Under the pieces are notes generated by a model, which saw only the letters and a program-made list of their open reading frames with translations, searched no databases and was not told the DNA's origin. Source: Caldifarciminota bacterium (GTDB taxonomy: Bacteria > Hydrothermota > Tepidihabitantia > SM23-42). From it: DNA of 64,000 nucleotides. The translations under genes and the position numbers were made by a program. The DNA lies in assembly GCA_020353055.1 (NCBI GenBank), contig CP070686.1, positions 263,529-327,528 on the forward strand, given 5' to 3'. This document shows, one piece after another, positions 26,513-42,328 of this stretch (positions are counted from its first letter, which is position 1; the number at the start of each line of letters is the position of its first letter).

Positions 26513-26596
26513 TCACTCTACTGCGCGGTTCTACCCCGCTCTTGGCGAACAGTGACCGTGCTCATGAAAAAAGAATAGCGCTAATTTATGATATCA

Positions 26597-26624
26597 TTGA
26601 CAAGAAATACAATCTGCCTAGAAT
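26597..26624 (+). promoter_or_regulatory. Promoter of the histidine kinase gene, near-leaderless
   Basis: TTGACA (26597-26602), 16-base spacer, TAGAAT (26619-26624). The ATG at 26635 is 10 bases after the -10 box, leaving a leader of about four bases and no ribosome site. The promoter lies inside the longer open frame starting at TTG 26542, which argues against that start. Confidence 0.65.
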
Positions 26625-26634
26625 TGTCAAAGTA

Positions 26635-28845
26635 ATGAACAAAAAGATCCCAAAAATATTCGTCTGCGAGAAATGCGGCGCTGAAAACTCTGAGGGTACA
26701 ACGCATTGCGTTAAATGTAGCGAAGAACTGTCCCATGACTACTACAAGGGACTGCAACTTAGAAACACGATCATCACTCTGGGGCTCTTTCTGGTACCGT
26801 TCATCATCTTTTTCTATGTCGTAAATTTCGAAACCTCACGGCATTTCGAGAACCAGGTAAAGCAACAATTGAGCTACTTCGTTGATCTGAATGCCCGAAC
26901 CATCAAGGCTTTTCTCGAAGAACGCAAACACGATCTTCTGTCCATATCAACAATGGAATTAAATGGCATACAGGAGGTTAATATACGCGAGTCTTTTCTG
27001 AAAAAATTCGTGAATGAAAAACCCTCTTTTGACTTCATCGCAGCGGCTGATACTTCAGGCAAAATCGTGCTTGCAACCAATAACTTAGTGGGAAGCATAA
27101 AAGAACGCGCATATTTCCAGAAATCTCTTGCCGAAGAATTTTACAATAGCGGTATTTTCTACTCTGACTTACTTGACACATCTGCGATGATAATTTCCTC
27201 ACCTTTGTACAATCGTGCCGATGAACAAATAGGTGTCGTACTCGCCTCCATTTCACTCAAGGCCTTATATGACCTTATTCTGGATCTACGCATCGGCGAA
27301 ACCAGCGAGATATTTCTGGTTGATCAAAACGGAATATTCTTGTCTCCTTCCAAACTTGGTGGACGAGTTCTTGAAGAATATGGATACTACCGGGAGGATG
27401 AGAATCCACATATCGATGGCGGAGGAACCCTTGTACACCGTGATTACCGGGGCGAAAGGGTCATTTGCGCGAATACACGATTCGAGGAATTTCATGGCTA
27501 TCTTGTTTCAGAAATAGATGTCGATGAGGCACTCGCGCCGGTTACGCGGTTGAAAAACGTTATTTTCTATATATTCTTGATATTCGGAGGTTTCTTGGTT
27601 TTCTCGTCGGTATTTTTCTCCCGGCAAGTAACCAATGTATTGAAAAATTTGACCAGTGCGTTGAAGTCAGCGCTCGATGACGCTCAACAGAAAAAAACAA
27701 CAATCGACACGATCAATACTGAACTTCGCAGGCGTCTGCGCGACTGTGAATCACTGAGCAAAAAACTGCGCGTTTCCGAGGAATACATCAAGAATATAAT
27801 CAACAGCATATCAAGCGGTGTTGTTGCTTTTGACAGGAAACTCCGCATCACATACTATAACAGTTTTATTCAAAAACTCTCCGCAAGGCAACCTATAGAA
27901 ATCCATTCGGACCTCTATGACGCTCTCCCCGTGCTGAAGAACGAGACAATTGTTCATGCAATAGACGATATTTTCTCAAGCAAGCAATCTTTTCAATTGC
28001 TGCGAACATCTGTTTCAGCAGACGGCCGTGACTTTGTCTTGAACGTCTCCGGATTCCCCATACGGAGCGAGGAAGATATCGTTGGCGCCACACTCCTTAT
28101 AACGGATATCACCAAAGAAGAAAAAATGCAAGCTCAGATGGCCGATTATGAGAAACTATCGGCATTGAGTCAAGTCGCTCTTGGTGCTGCCCACGAAATA
28201 AACAACCCCCTGCTTGGAATCACTTCATATATTGAATTGCTGATCGAAGAAGAAAAGGATGTAGAAAGAAGAACACAGGCCAAGCAGGTACTGGACAGTG
28301 CTTACCGGATTTCGGAAACGATCAAGGGACTACTGAATTTTGCAAGACCTTCACCGCCATCGTTCACCAAGATTAACATTAACAAGCTGATTGCTGAAAC
28401 GATTTCTTTTCTGAACCATCAACCACTTTTTAGAAAAGCAACAATCCAAAAGCAACTCACCGATTCTCTCCCCCATATCACTGCAGATGCCAATCAGATC
28501 AGACAGGTATTATTGAACATCTTTCTCAATTCTGGCCAGGCCATGCCTGACGGCGGCACCATAACGGTAACCAGCCAGAAAGTTAAATTCGAAGAGCAGA
28601 TTGAAATCAAGATCGCCGATACAGGCGTGGGCATTTCAGATGAGGATCTGAAGTGCGTATTTGATCCTTTTTTCACTACCAAGAAAGGCGAAGGCACGGG
28701 ACTTGGATTGAGCATTAGCTACAGTTATGTGAAAAACCACAATGGACAGATCGTGATAAGCAGCAGTCCAGGCAATGGCACCGAAGTCACATTGATACTG
28801 CCCATAAGGCAAGCAACAAGAACCAAAGCTGAGGTACTGGAATAA
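26635..28845 (+). CDS. Sensor histidine kinase with N-terminal zinc ribbon and extracellular Cache-like sensor
   Basis: 736 residues. An N-terminal zinc ribbon (Cys11, 14, 25, 28; CEKCGAE..HCVKC) precedes the first membrane helix (about 44-64). A Cache-like periplasmic sensor follows (about 70-330), then a second helix (VIFYIFLIFGGFLVFSSVFF), a coiled coil and a PAS-like domain. The kinase core has the H-box AAHEINNPLLG, an N-box (IRQVLLNIFLNSGQAM), DTGVGIS, FFTTKKGEGTGLGLSI and GNGTEVTL. The HEINNPL H-box is of the NtrB/ZraS class that partners NtrC-type regulators, and the next gene, overlapping by one base, encodes one. A small extracellular ligand is expected. The cytoplasmic zinc ribbon is an unusual addition. 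Confidence 0.88.
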   Translation: MNKKIPKIFVCEKCGAENSEGTTHCVKCSEELSHDYYKGLQLRNTIITLGLFLVPFIIFFYVVNFETSRHFENQVKQQLSYFVDLNARTIKAFLEERKHDLLSISTMELNGIQEVNIRESFLKKFVNEKPSFDFIAAADTSGKIVLATNNLVGSIKERAYFQKSLAEEFYNSGIFYSDLLDTSAMIISSPLYNRADEQIGVVLASISLKALYDLILDLRIGETSEIFLVDQNGIFLSPSKLGGRVLEEYGYYREDENPHIDGGGTLVHRDYRGERVICANTRFEEFHGYLVSEIDVDEALAPVTRLKNVIFYIFLIFGGFLVFSSVFFSRQVTNVLKNLTSALKSALDDAQQKKTTIDTINTELRRRLRDCESLSKKLRVSEEYIKNIINSISSGVVAFDRKLRITYYNSFIQKLSARQPIEIHSDLYDALPVLKNETIVHAIDDIFSSKQSFQLLRTSVSADGRDFVLNVSGFPIRSEEDIVGATLLITDITKEEKMQAQMADYEKLSALSQVALGAAHEINNPLLGITSYIELLIEEEKDVERRTQAKQVLDSAYRISETIKGLLNFARPSPPSFTKININKLIAETISFLNHQPLFRKATIQKQLTDSLPHITADANQIRQVLLNIFLNSGQAMPDGGTITVTSQKVKFEEQIEIKIADTGVGISDEDLKCVFDPFFTTKKGEGTGLGLSISYSYVKNHNGQIVISSSPGNGTEVTLILPIRQATRTKAEVLE

Positions 28846-30203
28846 TGGCGGCCTCCATTCTGATAATTGACGATGAAGTACTGACTCTGAATAACTTGAA
28901 GCGCGCTTTGACAAAAGATGGTTATGAAGTACTGGTTGCCGACTCAGGTGAAACCGGGATAGAAATCTTCAAACGGAATCGGCCCAACATAGTGCTCGTT
29001 GACCTCATGCTACCTGGTATCGATGGCATCGAGGTTTTAAAACAAGTGAAGGATTCAGAGGCTACTACAGTGGTGATCATGGTCACTGCTTACGAAATAA
29101 TTGAAAAAGCAATCGAAGCGATGAAACTCGGTGCGTATGATTACCTGATGAAACCCTTTAAGATAAATGAACTAAAAGCCAGCATCTCTCGCGCGCTGGA
29201 GCTCCAATCATTGAAGGTTAGGGTCTCAGATACAGTTGAAACAGAAAAGGGGAAATACTATTTTGATCGTATCATCGCACAGAGTAAGAAAATGGTCGAT
29301 GTCGTAGAAATCGCACGCCGAGTCGCACCACTTGATAAAACAACAATCCTTCTTACCGGAGAAAGTGGTGTTGGCAAAGGACTCCTCGCCCGTGCGATTC
29401 ACTACAATAGTGGCCGCGCCGAAGAGCAATTCATCGAACTCAACTGTGCATCTGTGCCTGACAGCCTCATGGAAAGCGAACTCTTTGGATACGAACCGGG
29501 CGCTTTCACTGATGCGCGACGGCGTAAGATCGGACTGCTGGAAAAGGCCGATCGCGGAACTTTCTTCCTCGACGAGATCGCCGATATGCCGCTCCCCCTT
29601 CAGGCAAAAATCCTCAAGGTCCTTGAAGAACAGTCTTTCACCCGTCTTGGCGGTACAAATCAGATAACCGTAGATGTACGCATCCTCGCAGCAACGAACA
29701 GAAACCTGCAGACCGAGATAGAGCAAGGCAATTTCAGGGAAGATTTGTTCTACCGTCTCAACGTGGTACCGATCACCATTCCGCCACTTCGGGAAAGAAA
29801 GGAAGATGTCACACACCTTGCTCTCGCGTTTATCAGGGACTTCAATGTAGAGCTTCATAGATCATTTAAGGGTATAGCAGAACAAGCCGCGAGTGCTCTA
29901 ACTAACCACGAATGGCCGGGCAATGTTCGAGAACTGCGTAACGTCATCGAACGAATCATGGCACTGCATCAGACAGACGAAATAACCATGCAGCATCTGC
30001 CGACAGAGATAACTGCGAGCAGAGCAGTGGAACCGGTCATCAAAGAGCAGATTGAGAAGAAAACGTTCGTCACGATTGAAGAACTCGAGGAAAGATACAT
30101 AAGAGAAGTGCTCAATTACACCGGGGGCAATAAAACGCGGGCAGCTAAGATATTGGGAATACACCCAACTTCCTTATTCAGGAAGATAAAGAAGAACAAG
30201 TAA
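28845..30203 (+). CDS. NtrC-family sigma-54-dependent response regulator
   Basis: 452 residues: receiver domain with phosphoacceptor Asp53 and the conserved DD, Thr and Lys pockets, AAA+ domain with Walker A GESGVGKG (172-179), and a C-terminal Fis helix-turn-helix (GGNKTRAAKILGIHPTSL). The sigma-54 contact loop reads GAFTDA (219-224) instead of the usual GAFTGA, a substitution also found in some natural activators. Phosphorylation by the upstream kinase should drive hexamer assembly and open sigma-54 holoenzyme complexes. A strong sigma-54 promoter lies 125 bases downstream in front of glutamate dehydrogenase, with dyad elements in between, making that gene the obvious target. Confidence 0.93.
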   Translation: MAASILIIDDEVLTLNNLKRALTKDGYEVLVADSGETGIEIFKRNRPNIVLVDLMLPGIDGIEVLKQVKDSEATTVVIMVTAYEIIEKAIEAMKLGAYDYLMKPFKINELKASISRALELQSLKVRVSDTVETEKGKYYFDRIIAQSKKMVDVVEIARRVAPLDKTTILLTGESGVGKGLLARAIHYNSGRAEEQFIELNCASVPDSLMESELFGYEPGAFTDARRRKIGLLEKADRGTFFLDEIADMPLPLQAKILKVLEEQSFTRLGGTNQITVDVRILAATNRNLQTEIEQGNFREDLFYRLNVVPITIPPLRERKEDVTHLALAFIRDFNVELHRSFKGIAEQAASALTNHEWPGNVRELRNVIERIMALHQTDEITMQHLPTEITASRAVEPVIKEQIEKKTFVTIEELEERYIREVLNYTGGNKTRAAKILGIHPTSLFRKIKKNK

Positions 30204-30246
30204 CAGACGCAGCATAGTCACCCAAAACCAGATAATCATCATATAG

Positions 30247-30284
30247 TGCAATATAGCATTTTGCTATGTTTTATTGCATAATGC
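30247..30284 (+). promoter_or_regulatory. Candidate activator-binding site upstream of the sigma-54 promoter
   Basis: Nested dyads: TGCAATA (30247-30253) with TATTGCA (30272-30278), and inside them ATAGCA-TTT-TGCTAT (30253-30267). GCATAATGC follows at 30276-30284. The centre is about 65-70 bases before the -24 element, a plausible enhancer distance. ATTGCATAAT recurs at 30273 and at the -12 region (30338). Confidence 0.6.
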
Positions 30285-30327
30285 TGTGCTTCTTTAATAA
30301 AAGTCACGAAATTTCATAAAAATATCC

Positions 30328-30343
30328 TGGCACGTTGATTGCA
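30328..30343 (+). promoter_or_regulatory. Sigma-54 (-24/-12) promoter of glutamate dehydrogenase
   Basis: TGGCACG, four bases, TTGCA: a full match to the sigma-54 consensus with the correct GG to GC spacing. Start of transcription is expected near 30354, leaving a leader of about 16 bases that carries the GGAGG ribosome site (30359-30363). Confidence 0.88.
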
Positions 30344-30369
30344 TAATAAAGCTGCAATGGAGGTTATTG

Positions 30370-31653
30370 ATGGTAAAAATAAACAATACACAGATTAAAG
30401 AGAAAAAATATGATCCTTTCATAGAAGCAACGATGCAATATGAAAGAGCAGCACACTCATTGGATTTGGAACCGTGGATTTACAACCGATTGAAGTTCCC
30501 GGAGAAGGAACTTACCGTACACATGACGATTACGCGCGATGATGGCAAGGTTGAGACCTATACCGGCTACCGGGTTCAGCATTGCACAGTACGCGGTCCA
30601 GGAAAAGGCGGGATTCGCTACAGCCCGGATGCATCGCTCAGCGAGTGTAAGGCCCTGGCAGCATGGATGACCTGGAAAACTGCGGTTCTGGATCTACCTC
30701 TTGGCGGAGCAAAGGGAGCGGTGATCTGTAATCCTCCGGAAATGACCGAGAGCGAGCTGGAGAAGCTCACCAAAGAATACACGTACTCCATAAAGGAGAT
30801 CATTGGACCAAACCGAGACATCCCAGCACCGGATGTTTGGACTAATGCTCGAACCATGGCTTGGATCTGTGATGCGTATAGTAGATATGTCGGCCACTTT
30901 GAGCCAGCTGTGGTCACCGGCAAACCGCTCGAGATCGGTGGTTCACTCGGCAGAGCCGGAGCAACGGGATTGGGCATGTATTACTCGCTGCTCGAGGCAT
31001 CAAAGCATCTCGAGTACCCGCTCGAGGGCAAACGCGTTGCCATCATCGGTTACGGCAATGTCGGTTGTTCGATTGCGAAGTTACTATACCCATACGGATG
31101 CAAGATAATCGCCATAACTGATATATACGGCGGTATATACAAGAAGACTGGTATCAACATACCCGAATTGTGCGAATACGTCGCCCGGACGAAGACGGTG
31201 AAGGGATTCAAGAAATATGATTCGATCACAAACGAAGAATTACTGTCGCTCAACTGCGATATCCTTCTACCCTGCGCGATCGAAGGCATGATCAATGAAA
31301 AAAATGCCCACAAAATCAGGGCTAAGATAGTATGTGAAGGCGCAAATGGTCCCACTACTGCCGATGCTGATGAGATACTAAATGAAAAAGACATCTTCAT
31401 GCTACCCGACATTCTCGCCAACGCCGGCGGTGTTACGGTATCCTACCTGGAATGGATACAGGACATGCAAAAGCTCTTCTACACCGAGGAAGAGGTCAAG
31501 AATCGGTGCTGGAAAATGATGCAAAGAGCCTTCTGGGATGTGGTACGTATCTCTGACGAGCATAAGACAAATATGCGGAATGCCGCATACATACTTGCCG
31601 TTCAGAGGGTCGCCGATTCGATAAGAATATTCGGAAAGATCGGTAGGAATTAA
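30370..31653 (+). CDS. gdhA: Glutamate dehydrogenase (Glu/Leu/Phe/Val dehydrogenase family)
   Basis: 427 residues. It catalyses the reversible amination of 2-oxoglutarate with NAD(P)H. The catalytic lysine region (LDLPLGGAKGAVICNP), the substrate-binding GPGKGGIRYSPD and the Rossmann GYGNVGCSIAKL are present. The length and IPAPDVWTNARTMAW block fit the hexameric class seen in archaea and many bacteria. Cofactor preference cannot be read with confidence. ATG 30370 is chosen because GGAGG lies six bases upstream; a TTG directly before it is less likely. Control by sigma-54 and the adjacent NtrC-like regulator is strongly suggested. A terminator closes the gene. Confidence 0.94.
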   Translation: MVKINNTQIKEKKYDPFIEATMQYERAAHSLDLEPWIYNRLKFPEKELTVHMTITRDDGKVETYTGYRVQHCTVRGPGKGGIRYSPDASLSECKALAAWMTWKTAVLDLPLGGAKGAVICNPPEMTESELEKLTKEYTYSIKEIIGPNRDIPAPDVWTNARTMAWICDAYSRYVGHFEPAVVTGKPLEIGGSLGRAGATGLGMYYSLLEASKHLEYPLEGKRVAIIGYGNVGCSIAKLLYPYGCKIIAITDIYGGIYKKTGINIPELCEYVARTKTVKGFKKYDSITNEELLSLNCDILLPCAIEGMINEKNAHKIRAKIVCEGANGPTTADADEILNEKDIFMLPDILANAGGVTVSYLEWIQDMQKLFYTEEEVKNRCWKMMQRAFWDVVRISDEHKTNMRNAAYILAVQRVADSIRIFGKIGRN

Positions 31654-31848: not shown

Positions 31849-32349
31849 ATGAAAATCAACACGAGAGAACTTTCAACAATAGTTGACAAATATCACAATG
31901 AAAAATCTGCTCTCATTGCTGTGCTGCAGGACGTTCAAGAAGAATATCATTGGCTGCCCCCGGAGGCGATACAATTCGTGTCTGACAAACTCAATATACC
32001 GCTCATCGATGTCTACGGTGTTGCCACTTTCTATCGTGCTTTCAGTCTGACACCACGCGGCGAACACATTGTGACTGTGTGTCTTGGTACCGCATGTCAT
32101 GTACGCGGTGCTCCGCTGGTAAAGGATCGATTGGTAAATCTGCTTAAAATCGAACCCGGCTGCACCACAAGCGATGGGAAATTTACCTTAGAAAGCGTCA
32201 ATTGCCTCGGGGCATGCGCCTTAGCGCCAATTGTGGTCGTCGACGGTAACTACCATGGACAGACCACTGTTAAGAAAGTCGATCAAATCATTGAAAAATA
32301 CAAGAAAAAGAAGACAAAGAAGAAGACGACGAGGAAAAGAAAAAAGTAA
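31849..32349 (+). CDS. NuoE/HydC-like [2Fe-2S] subunit with Lys-rich tail
   Basis: 166 residues of the complex I 24-kDa family. The helical N-terminus (VYGVATFYRAFSLTPRG) and thioredoxin-like domain carry the four cluster ligands Cys78, Cys83, Cys119 and Cys123 (CLGTAC, CLGAC). In NADH dehydrogenases and bifurcating hydrogenases this subunit passes electrons to or from the NuoF flavin subunit. The last 17 residues are nearly all Lys, Arg and Thr, an unusual basic tail. It starts the operon, four to six bases after an AAAGGAG ribosome site. Its NuoF partner is seven genes downstream at 36589, so complex genes and signalling genes are interleaved. Confidence 0.92.
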   Translation: MKINTRELSTIVDKYHNEKSALIAVLQDVQEEYHWLPPEAIQFVSDKLNIPLIDVYGVATFYRAFSLTPRGEHIVTVCLGTACHVRGAPLVKDRLVNLLKIEPGCTTSDGKFTLESVNCLGACALAPIVVVDGNYHGQTTVKKVDQIIEKYKKKKTKKKTTRKRKK

Positions 32350-32352
32350 CAC

Positions 32353-32724
32353 ATGACCCTTTTCCAAATACAGAAACTGCTGAATGCAGAATTCGTATCC
32401 ACACACGCCGGGCAAAACCTGGACATAAAATACGCCAAGGCTTCGGATCTGATGAGTGATGTACTTGCTTTCTCACAACCTGTCTGCGAACACAACACAC
32501 TGCTGATTACCGGGCTCACAAACAAACAGGTTGTTCGAACGTGTGAAATAGCTGGTGTTGCAGCAATTGTCTTCGCACGCGGGAAGAACCCTTCGTCCGA
32601 GACCATCGAACTCGCCCGTCAATGTAATATTCCGCTACTCACAACAAAACTGAAGATGTTCGAAGCTTGTGGCATCTTGTACACGAATGGTGTAGGTTGT
32701 GCATCCCCGCATAGCGATGAATAA
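32353..32724 (+). CDS. Stand-alone DRTGG-domain protein (first copy)
   Basis: 123 residues consisting of one DRTGG domain: a YAKASDLMSDVLAFS segment, LLITGLTNKQVVRTCEIAGV and IPLLTTKLKMFEACGILY. The domain is also found linked to CBS domains and in phosphotransacetylase-related proteins; its ligand is not established. It lies three bases after the NuoE-like gene. A second, diverged copy is at 34454-34798. In anaerobes such single-domain genes often accompany HydABC-type loci, so a role in sensing or regulation of the redox complex is inferred. Confidence 0.8.
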   Translation: MTLFQIQKLLNAEFVSTHAGQNLDIKYAKASDLMSDVLAFSQPVCEHNTLLITGLTNKQVVRTCEIAGVAAIVFARGKNPSSETIELARQCNIPLLTTKLKMFEACGILYTNGVGCASPHSDE

Positions 32725-33175
32725 ATCAGACGCACGGTCCGAAGTTTTATTCCAACAGAAGTTCCCAATACGGGGCGGCGATTTTGTGAATGCAGGTGAT
32801 TCATCCTGCAAAATAAGAAATACCTTAAGGGAGATAGGCATCGACAGCGATATAATACGCCGTATCGCCATTACCGCCTATGAAGCAGAGATGAATGTTG
32901 TAATGTATGCTGAGCGTGGTGTAATGAGCATAAACGTCTATCGGGATGAGATATTGCTTACGATCGATGACAAGGGCCCAGGTATTGAGAACATCGACCT
33001 GGCGATGCAACCTGGTTATTCTACTGCAACCGAGGAAATGAGAGAAATGGGATTCGGCGCTGGCATGGGTCTGCCCAACATGAAAAAAAATGCCGATACA
33101 TTCAAGATAACAACAGAAGTGGGTAAAGGTACGAGGCTCGAAATCAAGATCCTTCTGGACGGCAAGAATGACTGA
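32717..33175 (+). CDS. RsbW-like GHKL ATPase/anti-sigma-type kinase
   Basis: 152 residues with the HATPase_c_2 fold: an N-box (AITAYEAEMNVVMYA), LTIDDKGPGIENIDLAM, GFGAGMGLPNMKKNAD and GKGTRLEIKI. This is the architecture of serine-kinase anti-sigma factors such as RsbW and SpoIIAB. No partner sigma or anti-anti-sigma gene is in the window. ATG 32717 is used; it overlaps the DRTGG gene by eight bases. GTG 32699 is an alternative start. With the H-cluster protein directly after it, an output role for a redox sensor is plausible but unproven. Confidence 0.82.
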   Translation: MNKSDARSEVLFQQKFPIRGGDFVNAGDSSCKIRNTLREIGIDSDIIRRIAITAYEAEMNVVMYAERGVMSINVYRDEILLTIDDKGPGIENIDLAMQPGYSTATEEMREMGFGAGMGLPNMKKNADTFKITTEVGKGTRLEIKILLDGKND

Positions 33176-34457
33176 GCGACGCTTCGCACATTCTATAAAA
33201 GTTAACGACGCAAAATGCATTGGTTGCGTGGCTTGTATGAAGGTCTGCCCCACCAAAGCAATAAGAGTACGACAGAAGAAAGCACATATTAGTTATGATC
33301 GATGCATTGATTGCGGTGGATGTCTCAGGGTCTGCCCGCATGACGCCATAATACCGCTCACAACACAACTCGCGGACCTGGATCGCTTCAAATTCAAGAT
33401 CGCCCTTCCCTCGCCTGTTCTCTACACTCAATTTGGGCAAGAGGTAATGCCCAATGAAGTTCTGGCAATCCTTAAGGAGATAGGATTTGATCACGTCTAC
33501 GACGAAGCGTTGGTATGCGAAATGATCAATGTCGCGACTGAAGAATATCTCGATGAGAACAAATCACTCAGACCCATGATCTCATCAATGTGTCCGGTCG
33601 TGGTACGTCTCATACAACGCCTGTTCCCTAGTTTGTGTCGGAACATTTTACCGATAGAGCCGCCGCGAGAAATCGCAGCAAAAAACCTGCGTGCCGAAGT
33701 GTCCGAACAGCACAATCTTAACCCGGAAAAAGTGGGTATTATCCATATCACGCCGTGTTCAGCAAAAATGGTTTCGATTAATCACCCGGAGAGCATGGCC
33801 AGATCGCATCTTGATGGCGCAATCTCAATCCGAGAGGTATATAATAAGGTCATGATGAAACTCAAACGGGAAACGGGTATGCTCATGATGCAAACACAAA
33901 ACCGTATTAGCGGTATCGGAATTGGATGGGCGATCGAAGGTGGTGAAATCAGAGGATTGAAATACACGAATTCAGTCTCAGTCTCTGGCCTATTAGATAC
34001 AATCCGCATCCTCGAGGACGTGGAATCAGGGAGGTTGAAGAACATCGAATACCTGGAATGCTTGATATGCCCGGACGGGTGCATCGGAGGTCCACTCACT
34101 GTGGAGAACCGATTTGTTGCCAAGAGTAATGTCCTACGCCTCATGAGGCACTTTGGGGGCAAGAAAAGGGTCAACGGTGTGCTGGTGAAGAGACTCTACA
34201 GAGAGAATTTCTTCTCATTTAAATGGGCCGTTGAACCTAAAGCGTTTCCGCCTCTCGATAAAGACCGTAACGTTGCGATTCAGAAGTTGAAATCAAAAGA
34301 AGGGCTGATCAAAAGACTTCCTGGCACCGACTGCGGCGTCTGCGGTGCACCTGACTGCAAGACTCTGGCCGAAGATGTAGTAAGAGGATATGCAAAATTA
34401 GACGACTGTATATATATGTGCAAGGGAGATCTGCAAAGCAATGGAGAGAAAAAATGA
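33168..34457 (+). CDS. [FeFe]-hydrogenase-like H-cluster protein of the putative sensory type
   Basis: 429 residues. Two N-terminal [4Fe-4S] motifs (Cys17/20/23/27 and Cys46/49/52/56) precede an Fe-hydrogenase catalytic fold, and a C-terminal Fe-S domain (Cys389/392/397/414) ends the protein. The four H-cluster ligands are in place: Cys142 (SSMCP), Cys197 (TPCSAK), Cys301 and Cys305 (CPDGC). The proton-relay cysteine of catalytic enzymes (TSCCP) is Met141 here, and the MPCxxKxxE motif lacks its glutamate. Such changes are known from slow, putatively sensory hydrogenases (HydS types of Thermotoga and Thermoanaerobacter). There is no PAS domain. It overlaps the RsbW-like gene by eight bases and the second DRTGG gene by four. 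Maturases HydE, HydF and HydG are not in the window. Confidence 0.85.
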   Translation: MTERRFAHSIKVNDAKCIGCVACMKVCPTKAIRVRQKKAHISYDRCIDCGGCLRVCPHDAIIPLTTQLADLDRFKFKIALPSPVLYTQFGQEVMPNEVLAILKEIGFDHVYDEALVCEMINVATEEYLDENKSLRPMISSMCPVVVRLIQRLFPSLCRNILPIEPPREIAAKNLRAEVSEQHNLNPEKVGIIHITPCSAKMVSINHPESMARSHLDGAISIREVYNKVMMKLKRETGMLMMQTQNRISGIGIGWAIEGGEIRGLKYTNSVSVSGLLDTIRILEDVESGRLKNIEYLECLICPDGCIGGPLTVENRFVAKSNVLRLMRHFGGKKRVNGVLVKRLYRENFFSFKWAVEPKAFPPLDKDRNVAIQKLKSKEGLIKRLPGTDCGVCGAPDCKTLAEDVVRGYAKLDDCIYMCKGDLQSNGEKK

Positions 34458-34798
34458 AATTGGATGATATTGTCAAATCGTGCAACCTCCACGTTGTCTG
34501 TGGAGAAGAATCACTGGAAAATGAAGTTAACGGAGGCTATGCAAGCGACCTGCTGAGCGATGTAATGGCACACAGCAAGAAGGGAGACATCTGGGTTACG
34601 CTCCAGGTACATCCAAACATAATTGCCGTGGCTAAACTCAAAGAAATTGTCGGGATTATCATGATAAATGGTCGTAAACCGGAACAAGAAACGATCAACA
34701 AAGCACGATCAGAAAGGCTGCCGATCATGACGACCGATCTACCTGCGTTCGAATTAGTTGGAAAAATCTACAGTATGGGTATTCGCGGAAAACATTGA
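34454..34798 (+). CDS. Stand-alone DRTGG-domain protein (second copy)
   Basis: 114 residues from ATG 34454, which overlaps the preceding stop as ATGA and has GGAGA eight bases upstream. It has the same plan as the first copy: GGYASDLLSDVMAHS, an IWVTLQVHPNIIAVAKL segment and LPIMTTDLPAFELVGKIYSMG. The two copies flank the RsbW-like and H-cluster genes. This suggests they form or regulate a complex with these proteins. The ligand is unknown. Confidence 0.82.
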   Translation: MKLDDIVKSCNLHVVCGEESLENEVNGGYASDLLSDVMAHSKKGDIWVTLQVHPNIIAVAKLKEIVGIIMINGRKPEQETINKARSERLPIMTTDLPAFELVGKIYSMGIRGKH

Positions 34799-35544
34799 TG
34801 CCGAGATGCTATCGGGCTGATCTACACGTGCATACTTGCCTCTCACCATGTGCTGACCTAACCATGTCGCCAAAAAGAATTGTCGAAACCGGACTCAAAA
34901 AAGACCTTGATATTATCGCCGTGTGCGACCACAACTCTGCGGAGAACGTCGCTGCTGCAATCAAAGCCTCCCGCAATACTGAATTAACGGTGCTTGCTGG
35001 TATGGAAATAACCAGTTCGGAGGAAGCCCATGTAATCGGTTTATTCAGTACGTCTGATGCAGCACAAATATTGCAGGATCTGATATATGAAAATCTGACC
35101 GCGGGTGATAATGATGAAAGATTATTCGGTGCGCAAATAGTGGTAAATGAGTTCGATGAAATTGAGGGTTACAACAAGAGATTACTCATCGGCGCCACGA
35201 ATCTGACGATTGGAAGAATCGTTGACGAAATACATCGATTGAAAGGTATAGCGATTGCCTCTCATGTCGATCGAGAAGCGTACAGCATCATTGGTCAGCT
35301 GGGATTCATCCCGGAGGATCTCGATTTTGATGCTTTAGAGATATCGTCTGCGCTAACGATAGCAGAGGCGAAAAATAGATTCCCCGAAATAGATAAATAC
35401 ACTCTCGTGTCATCTTCTGATGCACACTTTCTCGACGACATCGGGAATGCATCCACCCAATTAATGCTCGAAGACCCTACGCTGGAAGAACTCAGGAAAG
35501 CATTCAGGAAAATCGACGGACGATGCGTATTATCACAGGCGTAA
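34798..35544 (+). CDS. PHP-domain phosphoesterase
   Basis: 248 residues. The metal ligands of the PHP fold are visible: HVH in ADLHVHTCLSPC, DH in AVCDHNS, Glu in AGMEITSSEE, the histidine of IASHVDRE and the DAH of SSSDAHFLD. PHP enzymes hydrolyse phosphoesters, from histidinol phosphate to nucleotides and RNA. The usual HydABC-linked copies have no proven substrate. ATG 34798 shares one base with the stop of the DRTGG gene. Inside this cassette it could remove a phosphate placed by the RsbW-like kinase. Confidence 0.88.
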   Translation: MPRCYRADLHVHTCLSPCADLTMSPKRIVETGLKKDLDIIAVCDHNSAENVAAAIKASRNTELTVLAGMEITSSEEAHVIGLFSTSDAAQILQDLIYENLTAGDNDERLFGAQIVVNEFDEIEGYNKRLLIGATNLTIGRIVDEIHRLKGIAIASHVDREAYSIIGQLGFIPEDLDFDALEISSALTIAEAKNRFPEIDKYTLVSSSDAHFLDDIGNASTQLMLEDPTLEELRKAFRKIDGRCVLSQA

Positions 35545-35547
35545 CTT

Positions 35548-36099
35548 GTGGAGGATCTATCACTTCATATTCTGGATATAATCGAAAATTCATTGGCGGC
35601 CGAAGCAACAGATATAGAAGTCCAAGTCGAAGAACGAATTACCGAAAACATATTGATCATCAAGATCAAGGACAATGGTAAGGGGATGGACAAAGAAACG
35701 CTGGTTAATGTGCTGGACCCCTTTTATACAACAAAGACGACCAGAGCCGTCGGCCTCGGCCTGTCTATGCTAGCCCAAGCTTCAAAAGAAGCAGATGGCA
35801 GTTTTGACATAAAATCCAAACCAGGCGAAGGTACCGACATTACGGCTCAGTTCGTGTATAATCATATAGACCGAAAACCCCTCGGCAACATGGCCGAAAC
35901 AATTGCTGCATGCCTGGCCAGCCTTGGACCCGGAACCGACCTCAGGTATCGGCACTCCAGGAATAACAATGAGTTTCTTTTTGACACAAAAGAAATCAGG
36001 AAGATACTCTCAGACGTCGAAATAAATAATGTCGAAATCATATCATTTTTAAAGAAACATCTAGAAGAAGGTTTGATCGAAATTAGCGAAAAGGAGTAA
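35548..36099 (+). CDS. Small GHKL (HATPase_c) ATP-binding protein
   Basis: 183 residues. The first 110 form a histidine-kinase-type ATP-binding domain (DIIENSLAAEATD, DNGKGMD, FYTTK, GLGLSML, GEGTDI). It lacks an H-box dimerisation domain, so it is not a complete kinase. The C-terminal 70 residues are a short helical domain of unknown kind. A GTG start lies three bases after the PHP gene. It is the last member of the signalling block before the electron-transfer subunits. Whether it phosphorylates a protein or only binds ATP cannot be told. Confidence 0.82.
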   Translation: MEDLSLHILDIIENSLAAEATDIEVQVEERITENILIIKIKDNGKGMDKETLVNVLDPFYTTKTTRAVGLGLSMLAQASKEADGSFDIKSKPGEGTDITAQFVYNHIDRKPLGNMAETIAACLASLGPGTDLRYRHSRNNNEFLFDTKEIRKILSDVEINNVEIISFLKKHLEEGLIEISEKE

Positions 36100-36102
36100 T
36101 AA

Positions 36103-36486
36103 ATGAAAAAACTGAAAATCGGTGACTTGGAAAAAATCCGTGATAAGGTTCGCAGAACGGCAGTACTGAGACAGGGTAAGGCGCGAGCAAAAGTCACAGT
36201 ACACATGGGAACCTGCGGAATCGCGGCAGGTGCGCGTGAGATTCTCTCAAGTCTACTCGAGGATATCCGAAAGAAAAAACTCGACGACGTGATTGTCACG
36301 ACATCTGGTTGCGCAGGACTATGCAGCCGCGAACCGATGGCGACAATAGAAGTCACGGGTAAACCACCAGTGAAGTATGTGGATTTAACGACTGAAAAAA
36401 TGCGGAAAATACTGAACCAACACATTATCAAAGGCACGATCGTCAACGAGTACGCACTTGCCGTTGGCAGCGAGAGGACCCATTGA
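36103..36486 (+). CDS. Thioredoxin-like [2Fe-2S] ferredoxin
   Basis: 127 residues. The fold is that of the NuoE C-terminal half: the first cysteine in HMGTCGIAAGA, and the pair in SGCAGLCSREP. Only three cysteines are clear in this pattern, as the first pair is reduced to one, so cluster type needs care. An AAGGAG ribosome site lies six bases before the ATG. It resembles the small ferredoxin that accompanies HydB in several anaerobic hydrogenase operons and also the N-terminal domain of the next protein. Confidence 0.8.
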   Translation: MKKLKIGDLEKIRDKVRRTAVLRQGKARAKVTVHMGTCGIAAGAREILSSLLEDIRKKKLDDVIVTTSGCAGLCSREPMATIEVTGKPPVKYVDLTTEKMRKILNQHIIKGTIVNEYALAVGSERTH

Positions 36487-36588: not shown

Positions 36589-39500
36589 TTGAAAGAATTC
36601 CGAACGCATTTGCTAGTGTGCGCTGGAACTGGATGTGTAGCAGCAGGGTCATACGATATCAAAAAAGCGCTCGAGAAAGAAATTGTAAAAAGGAAACTGC
36701 ACAACGAGGTAAGGGTCGTCGCAACTGGCTGTAATGGATTTTGTGAACGGGGACCGATCGTAGTCGTTCAGCCAGACGGAATATTCTATCAAAAGCTCAA
36801 ACCGAAAGATATCCCCATCCTTGTGGAAGAACATCTGCTAAAGGGAAGACCCGTGAAGAACCTGATGTACGTACCTCCGGCCGAGGAAAAACCTATACCG
36901 AAAATGATGGACATCGGGTTTTTCAGCCATCAAAGGCTTATTGTATTGAAGAATCGCGGTCGCATCGATCCCGAGAACATCGACGAGTATATAGCTTTTG
37001 AAGGATACCAGGCGCTTGAAAAAGCACTCACCGAGATGAATCCCGAAGACATAATCAACGAAGTCAAAGATGCCGGGCTGAGGGGGCGTGGTGGTGCTGG
37101 CTTTCCTACTGGGCTGAAATGGGAATTGTGCAGTAAAACACCTGGTGACGTAAAATATGTAGTGTGCAATGCCGACGAGGGTGACCCCGGTGCTTTCATG
37201 GACCGAAGTATACTGGAAGCGGATCCACATGCTGTGCTCGAAGGTATGATCATCGGTGCCCGCGCGATTGGTGCAACAAACGGCTATATTTACGTGCGCA
37301 CCGAGTATCCGCTCGCTCTGCAAAGAATAAGGATTGCGATCGAGCAGGCAGAAAGTTACGGATTGCTTGGTCAAGATATCTTAGGCACCGGATTTGATTT
37401 CTCCATTGAAGTCAAACGCGGTGCGGGCGCATTCGTCTCTGGTGAAGAAACTTCTCTGCTTGCGGCGATCGAAGGAAAAATTGGCATTCCGAAACAACGT
37501 CCCCCATATCCTGTCCAAAAGGGTCTATGGAGGAAACCGACTAGTATCAATAATGTAGAAACGTGGGCGAACGTATCGCATATCATACTACGCGGCGCCA
37601 AATGGTACTCGGAAATAGGGACCGAAGGAAGCAAGGGTACCAAAATATTCTCCCTCGTAGGCAAGATCAACAACACGGGACTAGTCGAGGTACCGATGGG
37701 CATCACCATGAAAGATATCATTTACGAGATTGGTGGCGGAATACCAAACAATAAACAGATAAAAGCAGTGCAGACCGGTGGCCCCTCGGGTGGTTGCATA
37801 CCCAGAAACATGCTCGACCTTGCGATTGACTATGAAAGTCTACGAAAGGCCGGTTCGATGATGGGATCGGGTGGTATGATCGTAATGGACGAAGACACTT
37901 GCATGGTCGATGTGGCAAAATATTTCATGAACTTCCTGCGTGACGAATCGTGCGGAAAGTGTTTGTCCTGTCGCGAGGGCACTCAACGAATATGGGAAAT
38001 ACTGGACCGCATCACTAAAGGCAGAGGTACATCCGCCGACATCACTCTATTAGAGGAATTGGCACAAGCCACCAAAGATGCTTCAATGTGCGGACTCGGA
38101 CAGACTGCGGCCAACCCCGTGCTCAGCACGCTCAACTATTTCATGGATGAATATGAGGCACATATCAAATACAAGAAATGCCCTGCCGTAGTATGCAAAA
38201 GCATGATCTCATCTCCTTGTCAACATACATGCCCAATTGCCACCGAAGCTCCGCAATACATTGCCTACATCGCGCACGGCGAATTCGAGAAGGCGTATGA
38301 CATCATTCTTAAAGACAATCCGCTTCTGAATGTGTGTGCACGTGTCTGTCATCACCCGTGCGAGACAAAATGCCGAGCTGGACAGGGCGGTAAACCGATT
38401 GCTATCCGGGAACTCAAACGAGCCGCGATCGAACACAGTAATGGACGGACGCGACCCAAAGTTCGAAAAGCATCAGGTGAAAAGGTTGCGATCATTGGTT
38501 CGGGACCTTCTGGACTGACGGCAGCTCACGCCCTTGCGCATATGGGCTACGCTCCAACGATTTTCGAAGCGCTGCCCATCGCCGGCGGTATGCTCGCCGT
38601 GGGTATACCAGAATACCGATTACCCAAAAAAGCTCTGAAAGAAGACATAAATCGTGTTCTAAATGCTGGTGTCGAACTCAAACTGGAACATAAACTGGGC
38701 AGAGATTTCATGCTTGAAGATCTATTCAAACAGGACTACCGCGCTGTCTACATTGCAGTGGGTGCCCACAAAAGCATCAAACTCGGCATACCGAACGAAG
38801 AAGCAAATGGCGTAATTCCAGCAATGCGTTTTCTGACTGATGTCAGTGTCGGAAAACAAGTAAAAATAGGTAATCGTGTTGGAGTCATAGGCGGCGGCAA
38901 CTCAGCAGTCGATGCTGCTCGCGTGGCAAACCGGCTGCCAAATGTTCACAAGGTCACAATCATTTATCGTCGAACACGAAACGAAATGCCCGCCTATGCC
39001 GAAGAGATCGAAAGCGCATTGGAAGAGGGTATCGAGATCAAATTCCTCACGGCACCGAGCGAAATTGTTGTAAAGGATGGAAGCATCGCTGGTGTCAAAT
39101 GCACCAAAATGAATTTAGGCACAGTAGACAAGAGCGGACGGCGGCGGCCGATACCAATAAAGAATTCGGAAATTGTTATCGAAATCGACACACTCATTTC
39201 TGCAATCAGCGAACAACCGGATCTGTCTTTTTTTGAGAAGGAAAATGATTTTGAAATCACCGGTTGGAATACGTTCGTCGTCGACAAGGAATCGCTGTCA
39301 ACAAATGTCGCCGGTGTCTTTGCCGGTGGCGATGCGATACGCGGTCCCAGTTCGGTCATCGAAGCAATGGCTGACGGTAAGAGAGTTGCCGAGGCAATGG
39401 ATAAATATTTGAAGAACAAGCATATTACATTCGAGTATAGAGTTACCAGGCCATCTGTATATGTCGAGCCTGTAAAACTAACAGTTGAAGAAACACTTGA

Positions 39501-39663
39501 GAGCACGAGACAAGAACCGAGGAAGACAAAACCTGCGGCTCGTAGCAAGACTTTTACAGAGGTGGATCTCGGTTTCAGTAAAAGCGCTGCAATAAAGGAA
39601 GCGAAACGCTGTCTGAGATGCGATCTGGAAATCAAAGAAGAGGACGAAAAGGAGCAATCATGA
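36589..39663 (+). CDS. NuoF/HydB-like flavoprotein fused to a GltD-like FAD/NAD(P)H oxidoreductase
   Basis: 1024 residues in three parts. Residues 1-90 are a thioredoxin-like [2Fe-2S] domain (Cys11, 16, 48, 52). Residues 100-525 are NuoF: the FMN/NADH site (GRGGAGFPTG, 166-175; CNADEGDPGAF) and [4Fe-4S] ligands Cys455, 458, 461 and 501. From about 530 the protein is a glutamate-synthase small-subunit type: eight cysteines for two [4Fe-4S] clusters (CxxxC 544-548; CARVC, CETKC 583-595), an FAD site (IIGSGPSGLTAA, about 634), a second Rossmann site (VIGGGNSAVDAA) and a terminal GGDAIRGPS FAD loop. The ferredoxin tail usual in HydB is thus replaced by GltD. The protein could connect NADH oxidation to NADPH or to the GltB-like enzyme downstream. 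TTG start, with AGGAGG five bases upstream. Confidence 0.9.
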   Translation: MKEFRTHLLVCAGTGCVAAGSYDIKKALEKEIVKRKLHNEVRVVATGCNGFCERGPIVVVQPDGIFYQKLKPKDIPILVEEHLLKGRPVKNLMYVPPAEEKPIPKMMDIGFFSHQRLIVLKNRGRIDPENIDEYIAFEGYQALEKALTEMNPEDIINEVKDAGLRGRGGAGFPTGLKWELCSKTPGDVKYVVCNADEGDPGAFMDRSILEADPHAVLEGMIIGARAIGATNGYIYVRTEYPLALQRIRIAIEQAESYGLLGQDILGTGFDFSIEVKRGAGAFVSGEETSLLAAIEGKIGIPKQRPPYPVQKGLWRKPTSINNVETWANVSHIILRGAKWYSEIGTEGSKGTKIFSLVGKINNTGLVEVPMGITMKDIIYEIGGGIPNNKQIKAVQTGGPSGGCIPRNMLDLAIDYESLRKAGSMMGSGGMIVMDEDTCMVDVAKYFMNFLRDESCGKCLSCREGTQRIWEILDRITKGRGTSADITLLEELAQATKDASMCGLGQTAANPVLSTLNYFMDEYEAHIKYKKCPAVVCKSMISSPCQHTCPIATEAPQYIAYIAHGEFEKAYDIILKDNPLLNVCARVCHHPCETKCRAGQGGKPIAIRELKRAAIEHSNGRTRPKVRKASGEKVAIIGSGPSGLTAAHALAHMGYAPTIFEALPIAGGMLAVGIPEYRLPKKALKEDINRVLNAGVELKLEHKLGRDFMLEDLFKQDYRAVYIAVGAHKSIKLGIPNEEANGVIPAMRFLTDVSVGKQVKIGNRVGVIGGGNSAVDAARVANRLPNVHKVTIIYRRTRNEMPAYAEEIESALEEGIEIKFLTAPSEIVVKDGSIAGVKCTKMNLGTVDKSGRRRPIPIKNSEIVIEIDTLISAISEQPDLSFFEKENDFEITGWNTFVVDKESLSTNVAGVFAGGDAIRGPSSVIEAMADGKRVAEAMDKYLKNKHITFEYRVTRPSVYVEPVKLTVEETLESTRQEPRKTKPAARSKTFTEVDLGFSKSAAIKEAKRCLRCDLEIKEEDEKEQS

Positions 39664-40364
39664 TAAGCTTCATTTTGAATGGACTCGATGTACAGACCGA
39701 GGACGGGTCCACTATTTTGGAGGCCTGTAAGTTCTACGGTATCGAAATACCAACCCTTTGTTATAACGAGGGGTTGAGACCTTATGGCGGATGCCGCTTA
39801 TGTCTGGTGGAAATAGGCTCCGGTGAAAACAGTAGACTCGTCAGCTCCTGCACTTACCCGGTTGAAGAAGGTCTCAATGTTCGAACTAATACCAAAAGGG
39901 TCGTAGATGCCCGGAAGATGATGATCGAATTACTGGTTTCGATATGCCCGCAGTCAAAGACTGTACAGGACCTCGCGTCTAAATACCATGTAACACGGGT
40001 GCGTTTTCCGGTGCGCAACGATAACTGCGTACTCTGTGGGTTATGTGTTCGAATGTGTAAGGAACAGATGCAGTCCGGAGCAATCGGTTTCAGCGAGCGC
40101 GGTTACAAGAAGAAAATAGTCACACCCTTCAATATCCGGTCAGAACAATGCCGCCTATGTGGTGGTTGTATATATATCTGTCCTGCATGTCAGATGCGGT
40201 GTCAGGGGCCTGATGCGGAAACCGACCTTTGCAGTGGGTGTCTGTCTCTCGAACCAACCTGTATCGAAACACATGATGACTATCAGTGCTGGATGGGCAC
40301 CACCGGCGACTGTGGAACATGTGAAGGAAGACCGGATCAGCGGACGAAACCAGACAACAGATGA
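39660..40364 (+). CDS. NuoG/HydA N-terminal-type Fe-S protein without catalytic domain, Cys-rich tail
   Basis: 234 residues from ATG 39660 (ATGA overlap with NuoF; AAAAGGAG upstream). A plant-type [2Fe-2S] ferredoxin (Cys34, 45, 48, 64) is followed by the NuoG linker. The usual His-Cys3 cluster motif has been lost: the segment reads SICPQSKTVQDL. Two [4Fe-4S] motifs are intact (Cys123/126/129/133 and Cys164/167/170/174). The H-cluster or molybdopterin domain that normally follows in HydA, NuoG or FdhA is missing. Instead a 55-residue tail with eight cysteines (for example CSGC, CGTC) ends the protein. It can serve only as an electron relay between NuoF and another partner. Confidence 0.85.
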   Translation: MISFILNGLDVQTEDGSTILEACKFYGIEIPTLCYNEGLRPYGGCRLCLVEIGSGENSRLVSSCTYPVEEGLNVRTNTKRVVDARKMMIELLVSICPQSKTVQDLASKYHVTRVRFPVRNDNCVLCGLCVRMCKEQMQSGAIGFSERGYKKKIVTPFNIRSEQCRLCGGCIYICPACQMRCQGPDAETDLCSGCLSLEPTCIETHDDYQCWMGTTGDCGTCEGRPDQRTKPDNR

Positions 40365-40744: not shown

Positions 40745-40766
40745 ATGCCCTCATTATCAAGAATGA
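40368..40766 (+). CDS. Doubtful open frame filling the gap before the GltB-like gene
   Basis: 132 codons without a stop from ATG 40368, overlapping the GltB-like start by 22 bases. There is no ribosome site, no recognised domain, and the composition (Ser, Ile, Asn, Asp, several Cys) differs from neighbouring proteins. A frame this long by chance in 380 bases is unlikely but possible. It might be a real small protein or a decayed gene. Confidence 0.2.
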   Translation: MTDNCKIREKLSKIMIPKSVSFSIQWQPMNTEKHTDDSMAGCNETIASLSQARDISEEFIDISLCDSLIDIYDKSGHQLDNSAVAWSKFKREAKMVNDRIRNLCLRNGHRNRSPLPVCIEERKEKTCPHYQE

Positions 40767-42328
40767 ATGCCTCTGCGGCAACATTAACAAAAAATAGAAC
40801 TGAAGATTCGATCGTTCCGTTGAGCGGAATGTGCGTTACATGTGTAGATGGTTGTATTGGTATGTGTGAAATAGGCAAATCGGCATACCGCGGACACGAA
40901 GTCATATACCCGCAGCCGTTCGGCATCCTGACCGCTGCATCAGAGAAGAACTACCCGGTGGATTATTCCCACTTCAACATCATGGGTACGGCAGTAGGAG
41001 CGATGGGTGTGGAAGCCGATCCAGATAAAGCAATTTTCCCGAACGTCATGATTGAACAGAAGATAGGTCTCAACAATGACATCAAACTCAAGTTCCCAAT
41101 GGTCGTCCCTGGATTGGGTTCGACAAATGTCGCCAAGAACAACTGGGATGGGTTGGCGATCGGTACTGCATTATCCGGTGCTATGCTGACGATAGGTGAA
41201 AATGTTGTCGCCATGGACATGAATAGTGAGATAAAAGGCGGAAAAATACTCCGTGCTCCTGATCTCGAGCAGCGCGTGAAACTCTACAAAGACTGGCAAA
41301 GAGACGGCTATGGTATGATCATCGTCCAGGCTAATGTTGAAGACACGAGACTTGGCGTTCAGGAATTCGCCATTCAGAAACTGGGCGTCGAGACAGTCGA
41401 GCTCAAATGGGGGCAGGGTGCCAAGGACATAGGTGGAGAAGTCAAGATCAAAGACCTCAAGAAGGCACAAGAACTTAGGAAGCGCGGCTATGTAGTATTA
41501 CCCGATCCGCTCGACCCGGACGTCATCAAGGCGTTTGAACACAAAACGTTCACCGAATTCGAACGGCATTCGCGCATCGGCATGGTCGACGAAGAGTCAT
41601 TCGTGAAACGCGTCGAAGAACTACGTAAAGCCGGCGCCAAGCATGTATTCCTGAAAACAGGCGCCTACCGACCGGCCGACCTGGCGCGGGCAGTGAAATA
41701 TTCTTCCATCGCCAAGATCGAACTGCTGACCATTGATGGAGCAGGAGGCGGCACTGGCATGAGTCCGTGGCACATGATGAATGAATGGGGTATGCCACCG
41801 GTTGAGATCCATTCTTTGGCGTACTTCTATACAGACAAGCTAGCCAAAAAAGGCGATTATGTACCGTCTCTGGCATTTGCCGGTGGGATTGCATTCGAAG
41901 ATCAGATCTTTAAAGCCCTCGCCCTTGGTGCACCGTATACAAAAATCGTCGGTATGGCTCGTGGACCACTTTGCGCAGCAATGGTGGGCAAAACCATCGG
42001 CAAGAAGATCGATGAAGGTGAGATACCAGTATTTGTCGAACGGTTTGGAAATAAGAAAGAGGAAATTTTCGTCACGGCATCAAAGTTGAAGAAAGAACTC
42101 GGCAAGGATTTCGACCGTGTTCCCCCTGGTGCACTGGGTGTCTATACTTACGTTGAGAGAATGGCTCAGGGATTGAAACAACTTATGACCGGGAACCGCA
42201 AATTCGCTCTCAAGTACATCACCCGTGATGATATTGCATCTTTAACAAAAGATGCCGCGAATATTTCGGGCATCCCTTATGTTATGGATGTCGACAAGGA
42301 AGAAGTTGAAAAAATCCTAAACGGATAG
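40745..42328 (+). CDS. GltB-like FMN-binding glutamate-synthase-family protein
   Basis: 527 residues matching the FMN/2-oxoglutarate half of glutamate synthase (GltB2-type). Visible are the long alpha/beta barrel with KFPMVVPGLGS, LTIDGAGGGTGMSP (FMN-phosphate site) and LAFAGGIAFEDQIFKALALGA. Near the N-terminus four cysteines (Cys30, 33, 37, 41; CVTCVDGCIGMC) may hold an Fe-S cluster. The glutaminase domain and the C-terminal GltC-type helix of the full enzyme are absent. Ammonia, or a separate amidotransferase, would be needed to make glutamate. Electrons could come from the GltD domain of the NuoF fusion upstream. AAAGGAG lies six bases before the ATG. Other members of the family have roles outside glutamate synthesis, so the reaction is inferred. 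Confidence 0.85.
   Translation: MPSLSRMNASAATLTKNRTEDSIVPLSGMCVTCVDGCIGMCEIGKSAYRGHEVIYPQPFGILTAASEKNYPVDYSHFNIMGTAVGAMGVEADPDKAIFPNVMIEQKIGLNNDIKLKFPMVVPGLGSTNVAKNNWDGLAIGTALSGAMLTIGENVVAMDMNSEIKGGKILRAPDLEQRVKLYKDWQRDGYGMIIVQANVEDTRLGVQEFAIQKLGVETVELKWGQGAKDIGGEVKIKDLKKAQELRKRGYVVLPDPLDPDVIKAFEHKTFTEFERHSRIGMVDEESFVKRVEELRKAGAKHVFLKTGAYRPADLARAVKYSSIAKIELLTIDGAGGGTGMSPWHMMNEWGMPPVEIHSLAYFYTDKLAKKGDYVPSLAFAGGIAFEDQIFKALALGAPYTKIVGMARGPLCAAMVGKTIGKKIDEGEIPVFVERFGNKKEEIFVTASKLKKELGKDFDRVPPGALGVYTYVERMAQGLKQLMTGNRKFALKYITRDDIASLTKDAANISGIPYVMDVDKEEVEKILNG

Follow-up and report, generated by a model that had tools for sequence, protein, structure and literature searches.

HydS proteins of group D have been proposed to be sensory, and the C-terminal cluster of the group D protein TamHydS is bound by a Cx2Cx4Cx16C motif (PMC8163306). 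The secondary structure of TamHydS shifts on H2 and on photoreduction alike, and H2 leaves its C-terminal cluster unreduced (PMC13104023). Assembly of the [2Fe] half of the H-cluster requires HydE, HydF and HydG (PMC6212873), and in Clostridium thermocellum, targeting hydG disabled the [FeFe] enzymes (PMC4355364). In Sporomusa ovata, the StnABC transhydrogenase joins a HydBC-like core to a GltD-type NADPH module that takes the place of HydA (PMC10482914). Features of both systems meet in a 64,000-nucleotide stretch of DNA (the window) from a WOR-3/Stahlbacteria genome. On balance, we judge it likely that its HydS-like protein descends from HydS, no longer carries the [2Fe] site and uses its Fe-S clusters to regulate, by redox state, an NAD(P)H electron-transfer complex encoded nearby.

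The gene is an intact open reading frame (33168-34457, + strand) for a 429-residue protein, identified as HydS-like with an [FeFe]-hydrogenase fold from its domains, motifs, modelled fold, tree position and residues, that probably lacks the [2Fe] subcluster. Pfam searches matched PF02906 (106 bits), two Fer4 motifs and PF04060, with no PAS domain. The H-cluster ligands are C142, C197, C301 and C305; the N-terminal clusters are bound by C17/20/23/27 and C46/49/52/56, and the C-terminal cluster by C389/392/397/414 in the Cx2Cx4Cx16C arrangement. SSMCP at 139-143 replaces TSCCP, and TPCSAKMVS at 195-203 replaces MPCxxKxxE. Domain search and alignment thus confirm the four H-cluster cysteines, the three accessory [4Fe-4S] motifs, both altered motifs and the absence of a PAS domain, as first given in the preliminary description. 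AlphaFold2 predicts an [FeFe]-hydrogenase fold with confidence (pLDDT 85), and the solved structures closest to this model are [FeFe] hydrogenases. Together with this fold, the retention of the family in 23 WOR-3 genomes and its low pairwise dN/dS there (about 0.03 to 0.19 where dS is finite) show that the gene is not a chance reading frame.

Phylogenetic analysis by quick tree search, with SH-aLRT branch support and no bootstraps, places the protein in a monophyletic clade (support 96) that is sister to group D and not within it, the joint clade reaching 100. Groups A, B, C and D and the WOR-3 set each lie on one side of a branch, and the new clade falls outside groups A, B and C, away from group C. 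Four rows of the alignment and tree stand out, L074, L119 and L136 for their length or odd composition and L037 for its long branch. The TSCCP and MPCxxKxxE motifs and tree position of group A are absent from the window's protein, as are the PAS domain and tree position of group C. The proposed non-catalytic placement outside group A, among kin of the sensory groups, therefore stands, with the position next to group D now specified. According to a scan of genome contigs, close relatives occur in candidate division WOR-3/Stahlbacteria and other relatives in Aminicenantes, Zixibacteria, Ignavibacteria/Chlorobi and Deltaproteobacteria, while group D occurs in Firmicutes.

Genome searches show that the maturation genes are missing. 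The window's genome is a single contig of 2.69 Mb, 96.9% complete, in which the HydS-like protein is the sole PF02906 protein, and no other [FeFe] hydrogenase was found. Profile searches of this genome gave zero matches for HydG, one weak match below cut-off for HydE and, for HydF, just GTPase-domain matches below cut-off. The [2Fe] half of the H-cluster therefore cannot be made there by the known route, and the earlier suggestion of a slow H2-sensing hydrogenase is left without support. The HydG search covered all hosts, and the HydE and HydF searches covered the window's genome. Among 147 genomes of the phylum, 23 hold close relatives, and none of these hosts has HydG over cut-off or a second PF02906 protein; 14 of the 23 genomes reach at least 90% completeness with no more than 5% contamination. 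G092 matches the HydG model at 124 bits, far below the 312-bit cut-off. Across all 47 hosts in which the clade type is the only kind of PF02906 protein, HydG over cut-off is likewise found in none, with a C-terminal HydG fragment in G152, and among group D hosts, which also have catalytic hydrogenases, HydG is present in 17 of 21; neither count is phylogenetically independent. The remaining four group D hosts encode canonical hydrogenases, and their assemblies therefore probably miss the HydG gene. Relatives also occur in HydG-bearing hosts (G116, G117, G169, G171, G174 and G196), which have separate canonical hydrogenases as well, scoring about 310 to 349 bits. The window's genome also encodes HypD and two [NiFe] hydrogenase large subunits (L149 and L150, at about 1,514 kb and 2,515 kb) that look group-3-like and group-4-like by inspection. 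No description of bacterial hydrogenase homologues without maturases was found in the open-licence literature, although an earlier one is possible.

Residue comparisons were anchored on L116 of Thermoanaerobacter wiegelii, whose numbering agrees with published TamHydS at A137, S191, E252, E289, L291 and C379 (PMC10407848, PMC11803613, PMC13104023). All four cubane cysteines are kept in 48 of 48 tabulated clade members. The equivalent of D265 (position 273) is Ser, Ala or Gly in the same 48, versus Asp in 50 of 51 group D proteins. The clade also has S/T where group D has A at position 82, R/K in most members where group D has M at 167, and D/Q/T/E in most members where group D has G at 303; by alignment, these positions would correspond to CpI A230, Q325 and G501, probably near the [2Fe] site. 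C117 occurs in the clade, unlike group D, with Ser in seven members. Within the group D proton relay E252-E289-S249-D265, the window's protein keeps both glutamates as E260 and E297 and has E257 for S249 and S273 for D265. Among the close WOR-3 relatives, the first glutamate is present in 23 of 23 and the second in 22, with one Gly. The K358 equivalent is Lys in 21 and Arg in two of these relatives; it was rejected as a marker of maturase presence, since it does not separate hosts with HydG from those without, and L096 and L119 have Ile there. In clade members outside WOR-3, the N-terminal cluster ligand at position 20 is lost (Arg in 20 of 25), and the cluster concerned may be a [3Fe-4S] one.

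Substitution of Met for the relay cysteine was the headline of the preliminary description. Met141 is indeed present in SSMCP, but it does not define the family: at this position (CpI C299), 20 of 23 close relatives have Thr, two Met and one Ile. In group D, 47 of 51 proteins have Ala or Ser here, and the position was already non-Cys in groups C and D (PMC10407848). Met141 as a defining family trait was rejected, and sequence comparison shows that this residue was acquired recently and does not set apart a new class of enzyme. Changes of the TPC...S type are likewise ordinary among group D proteins in the alignment.

The locus has a conserved regulatory and electron-transfer organization, all on the + strand. 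Directly upstream lies a gene for an RsbW/SpoIIAB-like HATPase, likely a serine kinase (32699-33175; PF02518/PF13581, with TIGR01925 at 52 bits, below cut-off), whose end overlaps the hydS-like start by 8 bases. An RsbW-like gene occupies this place in all 28 clade loci that extend far enough and in 46 of 48 group D loci, so the early link to this overlapping ATPase holds. Before it come a NuoE/HydC-like [2Fe-2S] thioredoxin-fold subunit (31849-32349; PF01257, 178 bits) and a DRTGG-domain protein (32353-32724), identified by its conserved place and a PF07085 match barely over cut-off. Downstream are a second DRTGG-domain protein (34418-34798; conserved place, PF07085 barely under cut-off), whose annotated start may be too early, a PHP-domain protein that is probably a phosphoesterase (34795-35544; PF02811), a second HATPase_c protein (35548-36099; PF02518, 60 bits) and a [2Fe-2S] thioredoxin-like ferredoxin (36103-36486; PF01257 weak and NF041612, both under cut-off). 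These are followed by a NuoF/HydB-like FMN subunit fused to a GltD-type NAD(P)H module (36589-39663; PF01512, PF10589, PF14691, PF07992) and a short NuoG/HydA-like Fe-S subunit without an H-domain (39618-40364; PF13510, PF12838), which covers just positions 2-204 of the 571-position group A6 HydA model. An FMN-binding glutamate-synthase-like protein (40745-42328; named by inspection) marks the operon end conserved by synteny in WOR-3 relatives. On WOR-3 contigs that are long enough, the order NuoE-DRTGG-RsbW-HydS-DRTGG-PHP-HATPase-ferredoxin-NuoF/GltD-NuoG is conserved, as are the upstream genes for a sensor histidine kinase (NtrB-like), an NtrC-type regulator and a glutamate-dehydrogenase-like protein (26542-31653; named by inspection, with synteny).

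Partners of the NuoF complex vary across the clade. Of 22 clade loci with NuoF, none carries a group A H-domain protein, against 24 of 35 group D loci; the clade has modules of the GltD, molybdopterin or another type instead, which fits the modular HydBC core of Stn (PMC10482914). The L096 partner has both GltD-type and molybdopterin domains. NuoG-like partners of about 590 residues in L073 (9780-11573), L079 (10630-12423) and L082 (15620-17389) have about 300 residues without a Pfam match between their N- and C-terminal Fe-S domains, and in L095 (4060-5358) a NuoG-like protein carries a fused glycine cleavage H-protein domain.

Mechanistically, the window's protein would share its ancestry with group D HydS and would have lost the [2Fe] half in this bacterium, which has no HydE, HydF or HydG to make it. 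Given that requirement, the simplest reading is a protein with four [4Fe-4S] clusters, its cysteines retaining the cubane at the H site and three further clusters, that informs the RsbW-like kinase of redox state. Electrons would most likely enter through the N-terminal clusters, so that the protein senses how reduced the ferredoxin/NAD(P)H pool is. A conformational change would then pass to the overlapping kinase, together with the DRTGG, PHP and second HATPase proteins, and the kinase would tune the adjoining NuoE-NuoF-GltD complex and glutamate metabolism. By analogy, the structural response of TamHydS to H2 and photoreduction, with its C-terminal cluster unreduced by H2, makes such a conformational signal plausible.

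Nar1/NARFL, a eukaryotic Fe-S assembly protein, has a hydrogenase fold that is believed to contain [4Fe-4S] clusters and no [2Fe]. A structural or assembly protein of this kind, holding [4Fe-4S] clusters only and serving cluster assembly in the NuoEF-GltD complex instead of sensing, would account for a fold and cubane ligands kept without maturases and for the fixed link to an Fe-S-rich complex. This explanation is unlikely, however, as the fixed neighbours are regulatory (RsbW-like, DRTGG, HATPase) and are common to group D, which is proposed to be sensory (PMC8163306).

Several observations run against a protein without [2Fe]. The invariant H-cluster cysteines, K358 and the WOR-3 E252/E289 relay are kept as if the site were still occupied, and the host's two [NiFe] hydrogenases, identified by inspection, mean that H2 may still matter. 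These features would suit a true group D-type H2-sensing hydrogenase that obtains its full cofactor by a route independent of HydEFG or unrecognized, for example from Fe(CN)2CO units of the [NiFe] Hyp system. HypD is matched in 22 of 23 WOR-3 hosts, once as a fragment below cut-off, and in 38 of 47 hosts overall, counting gene-bearing hosts only. Yet 8 of 24 non-WOR-3 hosts (whose completeness is not given) gave no HypD match, D265 and positions 82, 167 and 303 differ from group D, and no HydEFG-free route is known; we therefore regard such a sensor as improbable. It is very improbable that the H site holds an organometallic cofactor made without HydEFG, such as a Hyp-derived Fe(CN)2CO unit; if true, it would be a new hydrogenase-type cofactor in a HydEFG-independent H2 sensor. 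That the gene is decaying as the relic of a former hydrogenase system, as the loss of the maturases and the catalytic hydrogenase partner might suggest, is scarcely credible; this reading was rejected on the low dN/dS and the intact syntenic copies across the clade, in which every cluster cysteine is also kept.

Clade proteins, which match PF02906, can easily be annotated as [FeFe] hydrogenases, and WOR-3, Aminicenantes and other lineages may in consequence be credited wrongly with an H2 metabolism based on such enzymes. The clade also uncouples the HydS signalling module from H2: its regulatory cassette persists without a catalytic [FeFe] hydrogenase or maturases, which makes signalling by PAS-less HydS proteins directly testable.

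Compared with known systems, the window's protein most resembles group D (M2e) TamHydS of Thermoanaerobacter mathranii in its domain layout, C-terminal cluster motif and lack of PAS, and it is 41% identical to the T. wiegelii relative. The loci also share the upstream RsbW-like gene and the DRTGG/PHP/HATPase/NuoEF order. Unlike group D, it belongs to a sister clade with D265 and other positions altered and no H-domain partner, in a host without HydEFG and without a catalytic [FeFe] hydrogenase. Like group C (M2f) TmHydS, it has two N-terminal and one C-terminal Fe-S clusters (PMC8163306), whereas group C carries a PAS domain and branches outside. The neighbouring complex, known here from its domains, resembles StnABC in combining a HydBC-type core with a GltD-type module; unlike StnABC, it has GltD fused to NuoF and the NuoG-like part as a separate protein.
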